DNA of 20,212 bases from a virus. This document shows, piece after piece, positions 13,797 to 20,212 of this stretch. Under the pieces are notes generated by a model. It was not told the origin of the DNA. It worked only from the letters and a program-made list of their open reading frames with translations, and did no database searches. Location: the IMG/VR virus record IMGVR_UViG_3300027491_000248, positions 1 to 20,212 of that record; one strand, written 5' to 3'. Position 1 is the stretch's first letter; every line of letters starts with the position of its first letter. The translations under genes were made by a program, and so were the position numbers.

Positions 13797-14009
13797 TTAC
13801 TCGGGCGCCTTGAAGCCCTCGATGACCCAGCTGATGAACCAGCCCAGGAACACAAAGGCGACGAGTGGGCCGAAGAGCAGGAAAAGGAAATCTGCTGAGA
13901 GGAAATCTTCTCTGGGGCTGTCGCCGCCTACTACAAGCGCGAGAAGGCCGACAGCCCAAATTGCCCACAGGCCGAGTGCGATTCGAGAGGTGCCTAATCT
14001 CCAGTTCAT
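13797..14009 (-). CDS. Small two-TM inner-membrane protein (moron)
   Basis: A 70-residue protein with two hydrophobic helices, about residues 10-28 (ALGLWAIWAVGLLALVVGG) and 40-63 (FLFLLFGPLVAFVFLGWFIS), joined by a charged loop (SPREDF). It is reverse to the late genes and ends one base from the stop of the preceding forward gene. Size, orientation and membrane topology fit a lysogen-expressed accessory protein, for example superinfection exclusion; the function is not shown by sequence. It may be the second gene of a reverse unit that begins at 14457. A GAGAG SD candidate precedes the ATG. Confidence 0.62.
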   Translation of the reverse strand: MNWRLGTSRIALGLWAIWAVGLLALVVGGDSPREDFLSADFLFLLFGPLVAFVFLGWFISWVIEGFKAPE

Positions 14010-14048: not shown

Positions 14049-14330
14049 ATGATCACCGACCCTACTGACCGGGACCATGCTCTGCGGGCCTTCAACGAGG
14101 CCGGCCAGGTCAAACAGTTCATGCTCATGGGCTTCCAAGAGGCGGCTCTTGAGCATATTGATCATGTACTTAGCTGGTGCGAGTCCCTGTTGGGGGCCCG
14201 TCACCCGATGGAGTTCGTGACTACCGCAGCGCCCGCAACACAGGTTCCGCTTCTGGACCAAACAGGCGCCGTCCGGTTGAACCGGGTTCGAACGCCCATT
14301 GATGCCCATCCCATAGCGCGTCTTGTTTGA
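14049..14330 (+). CDS. Possible small forward protein overlapping a reverse moron
   Basis: A 93-residue frame with a good AGGAG SD 7-8 bases before the ATG. The first 57 residues (for example AFNEAGQVKQFMLMGFQEAA) have protein-like composition and codon use like the phage genes, while the last 35 look like read-through of the opposite gene, which it overlaps by 110 bases tail to tail. It also starts only 39 bases from the divergent two-TM gene. I do not recognise it. Either it is a real late-operon gene or chance; real expression is uncertain. Confidence 0.4.
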   Translation: MITDPTDRDHALRAFNEAGQVKQFMLMGFQEAALEHIDHVLSWCESLLGARHPMEFVTTAAPATQVPLLDQTGAVRLNRVRTPIDAHPIARLV

Positions 14331-14457
14331 CGATGGCAGCGCCGTCCTGCTGATACCCCACGGATATGAGGCCGCTGGGATAGAGGGCGAGCACCACAGC
14401 GCGCTGAGTCCCAACTTGAATTACGGCGTTGAGTGAGACATCCGGTCTTTCTGCCAT
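14221..14457 (-). CDS. Small conserved-type moron protein
   Basis: A 78-residue protein with an SH3-like small beta-barrel look: VIQVGTQRAVVLALYPSGLI, then VGYQQDGAAIVKQDALWDGHQWAFE. I recall short phage and prophage proteins with the same plan (a beta meander ending in an Asp-rich segment and a WxF strand), of unknown function. A GGGGGA SD lies 4-8 bases before the ATG. A conserved upstream element shared with the lipoprotein gene (at 14481-14530) argues that it is a real, separately transcribed gene. It overlaps a weaker forward frame tail to tail. Transcription would run on toward the two-TM gene. Confidence 0.65.
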   Translation of the reverse strand: MAERPDVSLNAVIQVGTQRAVVLALYPSGLISVGYQQDGAAIVKQDALWDGHQWAFEPGSTGRRLFGPEAEPVLRALR

Positions 14458-14480
14458 AAATCCCCCGATTGGCGATCCGA

Positions 14481-14530
14481 GAGGATTCCATTCCAGCCAT
14501 GCCCGGGCAACCTGACGAGAGAGTCAGGTT
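14481..14530 (-). promoter_or_regulatory. Putative lux-box-type promoter of the 78-residue moron
   Basis: The dyad ACCTG-N10-CAGGT occupies 14510-14529 (extended AACCTGA-N8-TCAGGTT at 14509-14530). It is followed, on the reverse strand, by 16 variable bases and the block TGGAATCCTC (14490-14481). If the dyad is centred 42.5 bases before the transcription start, as in LuxR-type class II promoters, the start is near 14477 and the -10 falls within the conserved block, leaving a leader of about 20 bases with the SD. The -10 match to consensus is weak, consistent with an activator-dependent promoter. The LuxR assignment is inference. Confidence 0.55.
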
Positions 14531-14551
14531 TCGTTCGCAAAGAGGAAGCCA

Positions 14552-16276
14552 GTGAAAATCAACGAATTCCGCCAGCAGTACCCCCAATACGACGACATGT
14601 CGGACCGCGAGCTGGCCACCAAGCTCCATGCCGCCCACTACTCCGACATGCCGTTCGAGGAGTTTGCCGATCGATTTGGTGTCGCGCCTCCTCCGAAGGC
14701 AAAGGAAGGGCCGAAGGTGGGGTATGGCCTCGGTCTCGGGCGTGAAGCCCTGGGCGGGGCTACCTTCGAGTTCGCGGACGAGTTGGGCCTGGGCCTCGCT
14801 GCTGCAGCGGCGAAGGGCTCTCAGTTGGTTGGGCTCTCTCCGAGAACGGGCGAGTCTGTGGCCGACATCTATCGGGACATGCGCGGCCTCTACGGCGCGG
14901 AGCGTGGCCAGTTCCAGGAAGATCATCCAGTTGCAGCCACGACCGCCAACATCGGCGGCGCGGTGGCCACCGGTGGCGTCGGTGGGGCAAAGCTGCTGGC
15001 GAAGCTAGCGCCCACGACAGCTCTCGGCAAAACCGCGGCGATCTCTGGCGTTGGCGCGGCGGAAGGTGCGGCGTTTGGGGCCGGTGCCGCAGAGCCGGGG
15101 CAGCGACTGGAAGGAGCAGGGAAGGGCGCTGCAGTCGGTGCTGTTGTCGCGCCTGTGGCGAGCAAGGTTGGCAATGCCGTGGCCAACACCATCGCCAAGC
15201 GCAGCGCAACGAAGGAGGTTGCTCGCCTGGCGCCGACTCGCGAGGAACTGGAAGCCGCGGCGCGGCAGGCGTTCGATGAGGCGGACAACCTGGGTGTTAC
15301 CTTGACCGCTCAGAAAGCCGGACAAATCCAGTCGGCCCTGACGAATGCAGCCAAGTCCGAGGGGTTCAACTCTCACATTCACCCGAAGGTCGCCGCTGCA
15401 CTGAACTCTTTCGATGACCTGGCCACTGACGTTCCCACGTTGTCACGCATGGAGCAGCAGCGGCGCATCCTTGGAGCTGCGGCAAAGAGCCTGGAGCCAG
15501 ACGAAAGGCGCATCGCATCGCGGCTGATCGATCAGTACGACGACATGATTGGCGATCTCAAGGTTGCCGATGTCGTTTCTGGCGATGCAGCGCGCGCCGG
15601 CGAGGTGCTGGAGACCGCGCGAGGCCTTTGGCATCGGCAGTCGAAGCTGCGTGTCATCGAAGAGGCTGTCGAGAAGGCCAAAAACCAAGCCAGCGGCTAC
15701 GAAAACGGGCTCCGAACGCAGTTCCGGGCGATCCTCAACAGCCCCAAGCGCCTTCGCGGCTTCACTCCCGATGAGCGGGAGGCAATGAAGCGCATTGTGC
15801 GGGGTGGCCCCGGGGAAAACATCGCCAAATTCCTCGGCAGATTCGGCCCCGCAGAGGGTTCTGCTACGAACGTGGTCGGATCATTGATCGGCGCCGCTGC
15901 GGGCGGCTCGGTTGCAGGCGGCCCGGGCGCGGCAGCGGCCCTCATGGGCGGCCAGCTGGCTCGAAACACGGCGCAGCGCATGACTCGCGCGAACGTTGAG
16001 AAGCTGGAGCGCCTGGTTGCGACTGGCCGCCACCCCGGACAGATCGTCGGGCACTACAGCCGCCTCGCAGGGCCGCAGGCAACACCGCAGGAGCTGGCGA
16101 AAATACTGGTGTCTGCGGGCCAGGACGACCTGCTCAAGCTCTCCGCGAAGCTGAACACGCTTTCCGGCAATCAGCGGCGGCTTGCTATGGAGGCGTTCGC
16201 ACTGATTGCGGCAGGGAAGGCCGGGCTTCCTGATGAAGAGGAAGCCACGGCCGATGACGAGCCGCTGGCTCCTTAA
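14552..16276 (+). CDS. Large DNA-ejection protein with glycine zippers
   Basis: A 574-residue protein starting with GTG (SD AGAGGAAG). It opens with MKINEFRQQYPQYDDMSD, a short helical N-terminal module common in podovirus injection proteins. Residues about 130-210 and 437-470 are Gly/Ala-rich zipper segments (ANIGGAVATGGVGGAK; VVGSLIGAAAGGSVAGG). The central part (about 360-430, LRTQFRAILNSPKRLRGF) resembles a conserved segment of phage DNA-transfer proteins. The protein probably leaves the head early and forms part of the trans-envelope channel. No lytic transglycosylase motif is visible. It is separated from the other internal virion genes by the reverse cassette. Confidence 0.72.
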   Translation: MKINEFRQQYPQYDDMSDRELATKLHAAHYSDMPFEEFADRFGVAPPPKAKEGPKVGYGLGLGREALGGATFEFADELGLGLAAAAAKGSQLVGLSPRTGESVADIYRDMRGLYGAERGQFQEDHPVAATTANIGGAVATGGVGGAKLLAKLAPTTALGKTAAISGVGAAEGAAFGAGAAEPGQRLEGAGKGAAVGAVVAPVASKVGNAVANTIAKRSATKEVARLAPTREELEAAARQAFDEADNLGVTLTAQKAGQIQSALTNAAKSEGFNSHIHPKVAAALNSFDDLATDVPTLSRMEQQRRILGAAAKSLEPDERRIASRLIDQYDDMIGDLKVADVVSGDAARAGEVLETARGLWHRQSKLRVIEEAVEKAKNQASGYENGLRTQFRAILNSPKRLRGFTPDEREAMKRIVRGGPGENIAKFLGRFGPAEGSATNVVGSLIGAAAGGSVAGGPGAAAALMGGQLARNTAQRMTRANVEKLERLVATGRHPGQIVGHYSRLAGPQATPQELAKILVSAGQDDLLKLSAKLNTLSGNQRRLAMEAFALIAAGKAGLPDEEEATADDEPLAP

Positions 16277-16292
16277 TAAAGCGGCGGAGCGC

Positions 16293-17030
16293 TCAGCTTT
16301 TGGTGAATATGGCAAAAATGCCGACCTTCACCCCGCCCAGGCCCACGGCGAACGTAGGCTTGCCAGCGCCAACAGCCGGGGTATAGGTCAGAACGCCGCC
16401 CATTCCGTTGGTGGTCCCGCCGCAGACCTGATTCGTCGTGACGTGGTAGGCGTTGAAGTCAGGGTCGACAAGGGAAACGGTGCCGGAGTACGTGCAGCCG
16501 TCACTGTCAGTGCCGGTAAACTTGCCACTCGCGGCAATGGTGATGGTCGACGTCACTCCATCGTTAGTCGAGTTCCAGGTTCCTACCAGAAGGCCGAGCG
16601 ACGAGGCAATTTCGTACTCCGCCGGCACGTAGGTCAGGTTGAATGTACCGGTGTCTCCTCCCTGCGCGCGATAGGTGCCGATGAGTGTGCCGCGCTCATC
16701 AATGGTGCCCAGGATAGGGCCTTCGGTCACTGCATCCCCGTTGATGAACTCGAAGCCATCGGGAGCGAAGGCTTTGAAGAACCCATCGTACTTGTCGCCT
16801 TTTGTGTTGCCTGCTCCCTGGTAAATCGGCCCATTGTCGAGATCGACAAAGAAGAATCTTCCAGCCTCGCTCACCACGCCCTTGACGGGAAACGTCACGT
16901 TGGCGGCGTTGGAATGGAAGGTGCCCGTGTAAACGCCGCCTGGCGACTGGGGCGGGCCGCTTTCGCCACCTCCGCCGCCGCCGCAGGCAGATAGAAGCAG
17001 GGCACAGCAAACAGCGATGAGCTTTCTCAT
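16293..17030 (-). CDS. Prophage lipoprotein (moron)
   Basis: A 245-residue lipoprotein. The N-terminus MRKLIAVCCALLLSAC is a signal peptide with lipobox LSAC; lipidation is expected at C16, followed by a Gly linker (17-22) and no Asp at +2, suggesting outer-membrane sorting. The mature part is beta-rich in two halves (about 33-135 and 145-245), the second with TIAASGKFTGTDSDGCTYSG and cysteines C179 and C203 that could pair. Similar domains occur in uncharacterised lipoproteins of GC-rich Gram-negatives. It opposes the late operon, so it is probably made in the lysogen and may alter the cell surface or exclude other phages. SD GGAGAA precedes the ATG. Confidence 0.85.
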   Translation of the reverse strand: MRKLIAVCCALLLSACGGGGGGESGPPQSPGGVYTGTFHSNAANVTFPVKGVVSEAGRFFFVDLDNGPIYQGAGNTKGDKYDGFFKAFAPDGFEFINGDAVTEGPILGTIDERGTLIGTYRAQGGDTGTFNLTYVPAEYEIASSLGLLVGTWNSTNDGVTSTITIAASGKFTGTDSDGCTYSGTVSLVDPDFNAYHVTTNQVCGGTTNGMGGVLTYTPAVGAGKPTFAVGLGGVKVGIFAIFTKS

Positions 17031-17051
17031 GGGATTCTCCGGCGAATAGCT

Positions 17052-17101
17052 GAGGATTCCAGCAGATCAGAGAGTCCGCAACCTGACAGCTGATTCAGGT
17101 T
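17052..17101 (-). promoter_or_regulatory. Putative lux-box-type promoter of the lipoprotein gene
   Basis: ACCTG-N10-CAGGT lies at 17081-17100 (AACCTGA-N8-TCAGGTT at 17080-17101; the arms extend to GCAACCTGA/TCAGGTTGC at 17078-17103). On the reverse strand it is followed after 16 bases by TGGAATCCTC (17061-17052), the same block at the same distance as at 14481-14530. The predicted start near 17048 leaves an 18-base leader with SD GGAGAA. The inner bases match the published lux-box consensus better than at the other copy. The same dyad could also fold as a hairpin before the forward terminator. Confidence 0.58.
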
Positions 17102-17108
17102 GCCTCCG

Positions 17109-17131
17109 AGCCCGCTCCGCGCGGGCTTTTT
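17109..17131 (+). terminator. Intrinsic terminator just before the metallophosphoesterase operon
   Basis: AGCCCGC (17109-17115), loop TCCGC, GCGGGCT (17121-17127) and a T-run (17127-17131) form a forward rho-independent terminator. It would stop forward transcripts that have crossed the lipoprotein region. Only 17 bases separate it from the next start codon, leaving no room for a promoter, so the downstream operon must depend on read-through, antitermination or attenuation. Confidence 0.82.
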
Positions 17132-17148: not shown

Positions 17149-17397
17149 ATGACCGTCGTCTCCCTGGTGCCGCCGAAGCAGGCCGAGCGCAAGACCCCGC
17201 AGCACATCCTCGACATGCTCGATGCCATCCGGGCAGAGGCTGAGGCAGGCGTCATTTCTGCCATCGCCGCGACGTGGATTGTCGATGGCGATGTCGTCTC
17301 CAACTTCGGCTACGAGGCCGGCTCCGGCATGGCCCTGAACGGCGCCGTGCACTCCCTGGCCCTTGAGGTCAACCACGACATGACCTTCGAGGACTGA
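17149..17397 (+). CDS. Small phage protein heading the accessory operon
   Basis: An 82-residue protein with a strong CCGGAGG SD. After a helical stretch (about 17-33, QHILDMLDAIRAEAEAG) it has a beta-rich half (about 36-58, ISAIAATWIVDGDVVSNFGY) and then MALNGAVHSLALEV. The plan, a helix followed by a beta hairpin, is frequent in small phage proteins of unknown function. It ends three bases before the metallophosphoesterase start, so they are co-translated. No catalytic or DNA-binding residues stand out. Confidence 0.65.
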   Translation: MTVVSLVPPKQAERKTPQHILDMLDAIRAEAEAGVISAIAATWIVDGDVVSNFGYEAGSGMALNGAVHSLALEVNHDMTFED

Positions 17398-18853: not shown

Positions 18854-19128
18854 GCGAAACGATTCTCCAGGAAGCCCAGCGCGTCGTTGATGGCGCCCGG
18901 CAGCAGGACTACGGGCACCCCAAGGACAACCACGGCTGCACCGCGGCGATCTGGACTGCCTGGCTGCGGCGCCGGACCGGCCTGCCGATCGAACTCACCG
19001 CCGGTGACGTCTGCGCCCTGAACCGCCTGCAGAAGGAATCCCGGCTGGCGAACACCCCGGGACACCGGGACAGCCTGGTCGACATCGCCGGCTACGCGCG
19101 CAATCAGGAGATGATCGGGGACGGCTAG
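18850..19128 (+). CDS. DUF6378-like phage protein
   Basis: A 92-residue protein matching the pattern I recall for DUF6378: ILQEAQRVVDGARQQDYGHP near the N-terminus (about 5-24) and RLANTPGHRDSLVDIAGYA at about 65-83. This family is common in phage genomes near nucleotide-metabolism or recombination genes; the conserved His/Asp residues look catalytic or metal-binding but the activity is unknown. The start has an AGAGGA SD and overlaps the upstream stop (ATGA). Its TAG stop shares the palindrome CTAG with the stop of the convergent zinc-ribbon gene. Confidence 0.78.
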   Translation: MSETILQEAQRVVDGARQQDYGHPKDNHGCTAAIWTAWLRRRTGLPIELTAGDVCALNRLQKESRLANTPGHRDSLVDIAGYARNQEMIGDG

Positions 19129-19406
19129 GGCGGCGGCTTGAGGTCTGCGATCGATCCGGCGCCCCCACAGTGCGGACAGAGCCGCCGCGGCGCCTCCTTC
19201 TCCGGCGGCGTCACGAAGTACAGCCGTCCCTTGGCGCGGCACCTGGTGCACCGCAACCGCGGCACCACATCATCTGGCAGGCGCCGTTCCCAGCGATCTC
19301 CATAGAGCTTGCGCGCCGTGCGCAGCATCCACGGCATGTCGATCTCCACCGTCCAGTCACAGGCGGTGCAGGTCAGCTTGGTCCCGACATAGATGAATCG
19401 CCTCAT
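19125..19406 (-). CDS. Zinc-ribbon protein
   Basis: A 93-residue protein with three CxxC pairs: C13-C16 (LTCTACDW), C53-C56 (LRCTRCRAKG) and C77-C80 (LCPHCGGAG). The first two, 37 residues apart, fit a treble-clef or zinc-ribbon knuckle pair; the third is a half-site. A basic helix (RTARKLYGDRWERR) lies between them. It may bind nucleic acid or protein. Its stop overlaps that of the convergent forward gene within CTAG, and a reverse promoter-like sequence lies just upstream. It is the last gene before trpG, so it may be a phage edge gene or host; gene spacing favours phage. No SD is obvious. Confidence 0.68.
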   Translation of the reverse strand: MRRFIYVGTKLTCTACDWTVEIDMPWMLRTARKLYGDRWERRLPDDVVPRLRCTRCRAKGRLYFVTPPEKEAPRRLCPHCGGAGSIADLKPPP

Positions 19407-19439: not shown

Positions 19440-19630
19440 CATCCATGGCCGATGGCGCATGGATTTGATCGGCCTCGAAATTCAATCCGCGGCCCTGGGC
19501 TCCCGTACAATGTGCGCCCGCGAGGGGCGGCCTCGGCCGGTCCCAGGAAAACAAAAAGCGGGTACTTAAGCGGGTATGTTTCGGCAATAAAAGTTGATCA
19601 TATCGGCAGAATCAAGAGGTTATGCTTGAT
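19440..19630. other. Gene-free junction between prophage edge and trpG
   Basis: I see no coding gene here. The stretch contains a possible forward -10 (TACAAT, 19506-19511) with no good -35, a GC-rich hairpin (CGCCC/GGGCG, about 19515-19529), the direct repeat of AAGCGGGTA at 19556-19576 and the left arm of an inverted repeat that ends in trpG. No tRNA cloverleaf was found. The host promoter for trpG and the attachment site are probably somewhere in this stretch. Confidence 0.5.
19556..19576. repeat. Direct repeat AAGCGGGTA, 12-base period
   Basis: AAGCGGGTA occurs at 19556-19564 and again at 19568-19576. Short tandem repeats of GCGGGTA type are found near the edges of integrated elements and next to integrase genes, where they may bind integrase or overlap the attachment core. 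Here they sit between the last phage gene and trpG, so they are candidates for part of attR. This is inference; the other phage end is not in the window. Confidence 0.45.
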
Positions 19631-19636
19631 ATGATC
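19596..19636. repeat. Inverted repeat spanning the trpG start
   Basis: GATCATATC (19596-19604) and its exact complement GATATGATC (19628-19636) are separated by 23 bases that include the SD (AGAGG, 19615-19619) and one of the two candidate start codons; the other start codon lies in the right arm. Folded in RNA it would form a 9-bp, AT-rich stem; in DNA it could be a binding site. Confidence 0.5.
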
Positions 19637-20212
19637 CTGATGATCGACAACTACGACTCCTTCACCTACAACCTCGTCCAGTATTTCGGCGAGCTGGGTG
19701 CGGAGGTCGTGGTCCACCGCAACGACCAGATCAGCGTGGACGAGGTGGCGGCGCTCAAGCCCAGCCACATCATCCTGTCGCCGGGTCCCTGCACGCCGAA
19801 CGAGGCCGGCATCTGCCTGGAACTGATCGACCGGCTCAAGGGGCAGTTCCCGATCCTCGGCGTCTGCCTGGGCCACCAGTCCATCGGCCAGGCCTTCGGC
19901 GGCGTGGTGAAGCGCGCCCGCGAGGTCATGCACGGCAAGGTTAGCCCGATCCACCACGCCGACACCGGCGTGTTCCGCGGCCTGCCCTCGCCCTACACCG
20001 CGACGCGCTACCACTCCCTGATCGTGGAGGAATCGACGCTGCCGAGTGAGCTGGAAGTCACCGCCTGGACGCAGCAGCCGGACGGCAGCCGCGACGAGAT
20101 CATGGGCCTGAAGCACAAGACCCTGCCGATCGAGGGCGTGCAGTTCCATCCGGAATCGATCCTGACCGAGCACGGGCACCAGTTGCTGAAGAACTTCCTC
20201 GAGGCGTACTGA
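19631..20212 (+). CDS. trpG: Anthranilate synthase component II (glutaminase subunit)
   Basis: Hydrolyses glutamine and passes ammonia to TrpE for anthranilate synthesis, the first step of tryptophan biosynthesis; cytosolic, acting as a heterotetramer with TrpE. It is a class I glutamine amidotransferase with all key motifs: ILSPGPCTP, the nucleophile elbow GVCLGHQ (C79, counting from the ATG at 19631), and [11 protein letters not shown] with catalytic H173 and E175. The family normally begins [14 protein letters not shown], so I favour the ATG at 19631 (193 residues). An ATG at 19622 would add three residues (MLD) but lies only two bases from the SD. The stop is the last codon of the window, so trpD/trpC cannot be seen. 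PabA is an alternative name because the two cannot be told apart by this sequence. Confidence 0.93.

Follow-up and report, generated by a model that had tools for sequence, protein, structure and literature searches.

Host control of prophage genes is known from the diphtheria toxin gene under DtxR and from stx1 under Fur, and single accessory genes inserted among phage genes, or morons, are known from lambda-type phages as bor and lom. LuxR-type regulators act at lux box promoters, such as those of Vibrio fischeri luxI and the Pseudomonas las/rhl systems, in which a 20-bp dyad lies just upstream of the -35 element. Here, we analyze two reverse-strand morons of a provirus, carried on a 20,212-base virus record (the whole stretch examined, hereafter the window), whose promoters share features with each of these systems. 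Like the DtxR- and Fur-run genes, they appear from their sequence to be cargo genes with their own promoters that answer to a host chromosomal regulator, and the same operator and promoter are present at host chromosomal genes. Unlike those genes, they use an operator class restricted to one Solimonas clade, seem to be under activating control, and are two distinct cargo genes within a single prophage that appear to share that control. Like bor and lom, each is a single gene flanked by late genes, has transcription separate from theirs and is predicted to be active in the lysogen, but the moron promoters carry a shared operator that the host chromosome also uses. With lux box promoters they have in common a dyad of 20 bp, ending in ACCTG and CAGGT, that lies just before the -35 and keeps a fixed distance to the -10. 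They differ in having A/T at positions 6 and 15, in a predicted dyad centre two bases from the classical -42.5, and in that the genomes using the dyad have no autoinducer-binding LuxR.

Phage genes in the window include those for a capsid protein (PF25209) and an internal virion protein, and the window's 3' end runs into host trpG, which places the prophage end between about 19406 and 19622. Because a 78-residue stretch of this flanking trpG is 94% identical to both Solimonas fluminis and Solimonas sp. SE-A11, the sequence points to a Solimonas (order Nevskiales) as the prophage host; the host genomes examined below are hence relatives of the window's own host. Rfam and tRNA scans of the window returned no match. 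A related prophage in genome G044 was considered as a guide to the moron insertion points and dropped, given that a 574-residue protein is the only part it has in common with the window prophage.

Exact ACCTG-N10-CAGGT occurs twice in the window, at 14510-14529 and 17081-17100, and not once in 100 dinucleotide-preserving shuffles of it. Allowing up to two mismatches adds no further dyad site in the window, and matches with three mismatches are at chance level. Each dyad is followed on the minus strand by one of the exactly two window copies of the block TGGAATCCTC, and at both sites 20 bases separate CAGGT from GGAATC, so that the spacing is identical to the base. The ATG follows the block after 23 bases in the 78-residue gene and after 21 bases in the lipoprotein gene. 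Outside these promoter elements the two copies have nothing in common (Table 1).

Table 1. Features of the two moron loci and the host flank, in window coordinates.
Feature	Position	Strand	Basis or comment
78-residue moron, no recognised family	14221..14457	-	Family and relative searches
Shine-Dalgarno GGGGGA	14461..14466	-	Sequence
Predicted transcription start, 78-residue gene	14475 (plus or minus 2)	-	Inferred from -10 position
Extended -10 block TGG-AATCCT-C; hexamer AATCCT 14482-14487	14481..14490	-	Exact repeat; hexamer at offset 22 as in host promoters
Probable -35 hexamer TTGCCC, first T common with dyad 1	14505..14510	-	TTGC side conserved in host promoters (T 14/19, G 15/19, C 12/19)
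Dyad 1, AACCTGACTCTCTCGTCAGGTT (putative operator)	14509..14530	-	Exact; recurs genome-wide in Solimonas relatives
Internal virion/structural protein, located between the morons	14552..16276	+	phrog_21712, head and packaging
245-residue lipoprotein moron	16293..17030	-	Homologous to chromosomal Solimonas lipoprotein with same promoter
Shine-Dalgarno GGAG	17037..17040	-	Sequence
Predicted transcription start, lipoprotein gene	17046 (plus or minus 2)	-	Inferred
Extended -10 block TGG-AATCCT-C; hexamer AATCCT 17053-17058	17052..17061	-	Exact repeat; host-promoter alignment
Probable -35 hexamer TTGCGG	17076..17081	-	Alignment with host promoters
Dyad 2, AACCTGAATCAGCTGTCAGGTT (putative operator)	17080..17101	-	Exact
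trpG, host flank	19622..20212	+	94% identity to Solimonas fluminis over a 78-residue stretch

The promoter is not common to all reverse genes: those for a predicted small membrane protein (13797-14009) and a zinc-ribbon protein (19125-19406) have no dyad within two mismatches. A GC-rich hairpin, GCCCGC-TCCGC-GCGGGC followed by five T (17110-17131, plus strand), separates the lipoprotein promoter from the forward gene at 17149; it is absent from the list of the automatic scan and is probably a terminator that insulates the moron.

The dyad recurs in four related Solimonas genomes, in which ACCTGA-N8-TCAGGT is found 9 (G001), 14 (G002), 11 (G003) and 23 (G052) times, compared with 0-1 copies in the other 54 genomes of the family and 0-1 for the reversed control. 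The longer AACCTGA-N8-TCAGGTT has 2, 8 and 3 copies in the three nearest genomes and none in five others, and its reversed control is absent from those genomes. A stricter core, ACCTGAC-N6-GTCAGGT, was found in 1 of 368 further gammaproteobacterial genomes. From these counts, the motif is specific to one Solimonas clade. When viral contigs were scanned for the dyad together with GGAATC, 71 loci came up; the full arrangement was present at none of them, and their spacing and context look random. A literature search on the motif, Solimonas regulons and prophage lux boxes, with partial coverage of the literature, found nothing relevant.

Taking exact dyads only, with their flanks, we collected 57 host sites, none of which lies inside a called gene, as judged with a home-made gene caller and with several dyads overlapping a stop codon. 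Together with the two window sites they were grouped by sequence similarity into 39 independent clusters. In 19 of the 39 clusters (17 host and the two window sites), a -10-like hexamer, defined as nAnnnT agreeing with TATAAT at three or more of the six bases, begins exactly 22 bases downstream of the dyad, while other offsets average about 2.4 (Poisson about 1e-11, before correction for 54 offsets). Two elements unused in this selection are also conserved among the 19: TGC directly after the dyad (14, 15 and 12 of 19 at its three bases) and TGG immediately ahead of the hexamer (10, 11 and 11). The resulting consensus, ACCTGAC-N6-GTCAGGT-TGC-N16-TGG-nATcnT, parses on sequence as a -35 of TTGC, its first T being the last base of the dyad, followed after a 17-bp spacer by a weak -10 that is extended by TGn, with the dyad centre predicted at about -44.5 from the start. 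A weight matrix built from the 17 host promoters, with the window excluded, scores the window promoters at 38.0 and 37.2, within its training range of 30.6-43.5. Its best orientation at both is that of the morons, and the next best window position (23.8) falls on one of these dyads in its reverse orientation.

The preliminary description of the locus, which had reported two reverse genes with the same dyad and block at base-identical spacing, is thus borne out in its main observation and needs adjustment in the details. It had put the Shine-Dalgarno sequence and ATG 22-24 bases from the block, close to the measured distances to the ATG. It placed the block at the -10, where it stays, although TGGAATCCTC is best read as an extended -10 (TGG+AATCCT) with AATCCT as the hexamer in preference to TGGAAT. 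The box, for which it assumed a centre at -42.5, is near the class-II position but shifted as given above, and the 5' ends that it expected near 14477 and 17048 lie within two bases of our predicted starts without being identical to them.

Not every dyad need be a promoter element, given that about half of the clusters have no -10 at offset 22, that some dyads belong to a repeat family and that others overlap stop codons. At five loci (L246, L248, L254, L258 and L261) the dyad's TGA is the stop codon of the upstream gene, the operator being built into the end of a coding sequence. At five others (L238, L243, L251, L260 and L263) the dyads belong to one intergenic repeat family of G001, G002 and G003 in which the flanks are conserved, as in GCTTTGCGGCTGACATT. 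Such a family, along with a few near-identical clusters, is what could be expected if the dyad were a mobile intergenic hairpin or repeat and the window copies recent duplicates of one cassette. This is improbable, because the window copies are alike in promoter elements only and most host sites are unrelated outside the dyad, TGC, TGG and -10. A hairpin or attenuator reading for the morons was rejected, as the dyad lies upstream of the predicted start.

Whether a protein bound at the dyad would activate or repress can be judged from the same geometry. Since the last T of the dyad is the first base of the -35, a bound protein could block the polymerase, and the fixed spacing also fits a repressor that sits on the -35 and silences the genes until a signal relieves it. 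However, at both window promoters the -35 and -10 are far from consensus, and a simple sigma-70 promoter scan passes nothing in the moron promoter region, which suits promoters that need activation; exact phasing, here of 22 bases, is also more typical of activators. From the exact phasing and the weak promoter elements, we regard a repressor operator as rather unlikely and favour a regulator that activates, which would also have to work in the prophage's own host.

As to which regulator this might be, the outer ACCTG-N10-CAGGT architecture and the near class-II position of the dyad are those of lux boxes, and the preliminary description had suggested common, possibly quorum-sensing, control, in which a host LuxR-type acyl-homoserine-lactone receptor would activate both morons at high cell density. 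The genomes argue against such a receptor. The autoinducer-binding domain PF03472 has no match in G001, G002 and G003 at E<=0.001, nor in the complete-looking G052, with its 23 sites, at E<=1, whereas the Solimonadaceae genomes G005, G006 and G008 have PF03472 and lack the dyad. LuxI is absent from G001 and G003, and the single match in G002 (27.9 bits, cut-off 24) resembles weak matches in other genomes, although solo receptors would not need LuxI. In addition, G is avoided at position 7 of the dyad, and the A at position 6, fixed by the search pattern but kept in most sites with one mismatch, differs from known lux boxes. We consider control by a quorum-sensing LuxR very improbable and that link unsupported, while the common control itself remains well supported, since the promoter recurs across host chromosomes.

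A LuxR-type helix-turn-helix (GerE/NarL/FixJ) regulator that lacks the autoinducer domain could bind the lux-box-like dyad as a class-II activator, and 19-33 GerE proteins were found per motif genome searched. Nevertheless, no GerE gene examined adjoins an exact or one-mismatch dyad, and in a partial comparison (proteins of G052 and G001 against those of G004, G006 and G007) none is clearly restricted to the motif clade, leaving this a possible but unlikely identity for the activator. The CTG-N10-CAG spacing within the dyad is also that of the Escherichia coli LexA box, which would put the morons under DNA-damage control. With no RecA, LexA or DinB/ImuB motif in a motif scan of the called genes at the fetched host loci, an SOS box is the least credible of these readings.

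Many of the genes behind the host dyads code for envelope lipoproteins or other accessory functions. Lipoproteins lie downstream at L217, L224, L225, L254, L256, L258 and L264, an exported protein at L244, L255 and L270, and a flagellar-brake-like PilZ protein at L274 (dyad with one mismatch); a lipobox is present in 5 of the 14 listed downstream genes, compared with 5.7% of background genes. Accessory genes of the ATPase type are downstream at L236, where the dyad (2501-2520, G052) is near an ATPase gene resembling an accessory or defence gene, and at L271 (2501-2520, G002) a dyad is near a site-specific integrase; these suggest that the regulon includes other mobile cargo.

Neither moron has a family in PHROGs, Pfam or PADLOC, or in NCBIfam above cut-off, and no close relatives were found in viral contigs or phage records. 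The window lipoprotein does have a chromosomal homologue in G003 (34% identity over 213 residues, E 2e-34). The dyad upstream of that G003 gene is followed by TAGCCT at offset 22, and the orthologous gene in G001 retains the dyad with a single mismatch and has TAGTCT at that offset. This locus has the same neighbours in G001 and G003, nothing else there matches the prophage, and the lipoprotein family is present in 27 of 58 family genomes. Hence, one of the two prophage genes is related to a gene that already belongs to the host regulon.

By computation, the two morons share one promoter, this promoter recurs genome-wide and its geometry is exact. At the sequence level there is good support for both reverse genes being under common control, because this promoter is found repeatedly on host chromosomes with an unchanged distance between operator and promoter. 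We think it probable that both morons are on housekeeping-sigma promoters that need a putative host-encoded dimeric regulator, which would bring these prophage genes under a host regulon, and class-II activation is the most likely way in which they are wired into it. The predicted promoters combine a weak -35 (TTGC) with an extended -10 (TGG-AATCCT) across a 17-bp spacer. They would transcribe both genes once the regulator binds ACCTGA-N8-TCAGGT, which is centred at about -44.5 and reaches into the upstream end of the -35, and the bound activator would recruit RNA polymerase despite the poor -35 and -10. The same promoter class may drive about 10-25 genes per related Solimonas chromosome, many of them for envelope lipoproteins, with other accessory genes. 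The prophage would have put two lysogen-expressed genes into this regulon, one of them from a host lipoprotein family that already belonged to it, and the morons would be expressed from the prophage whenever the regulon is on, independently of the late genes, which lie on the opposite strand. More tentatively, a clade-confined regulator of undescribed specificity might run a scattered regulon rich in accessory envelope lipoproteins, into which mobile elements, including this prophage, repeatedly recruit cargo through a lux-box-like module without a LuxR receptor.

What began as two look-alike prophage sites becomes a defined class of promoter whose consensus is sharp enough for members to be found by sequence, and an ACCTG-N10-CAGGT dyad alone is no evidence of quorum sensing. 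If the proposed control is true, a temperate phage has adopted the operator and promoter geometry of its host, and its cargo would be expressed alongside host envelope genes.
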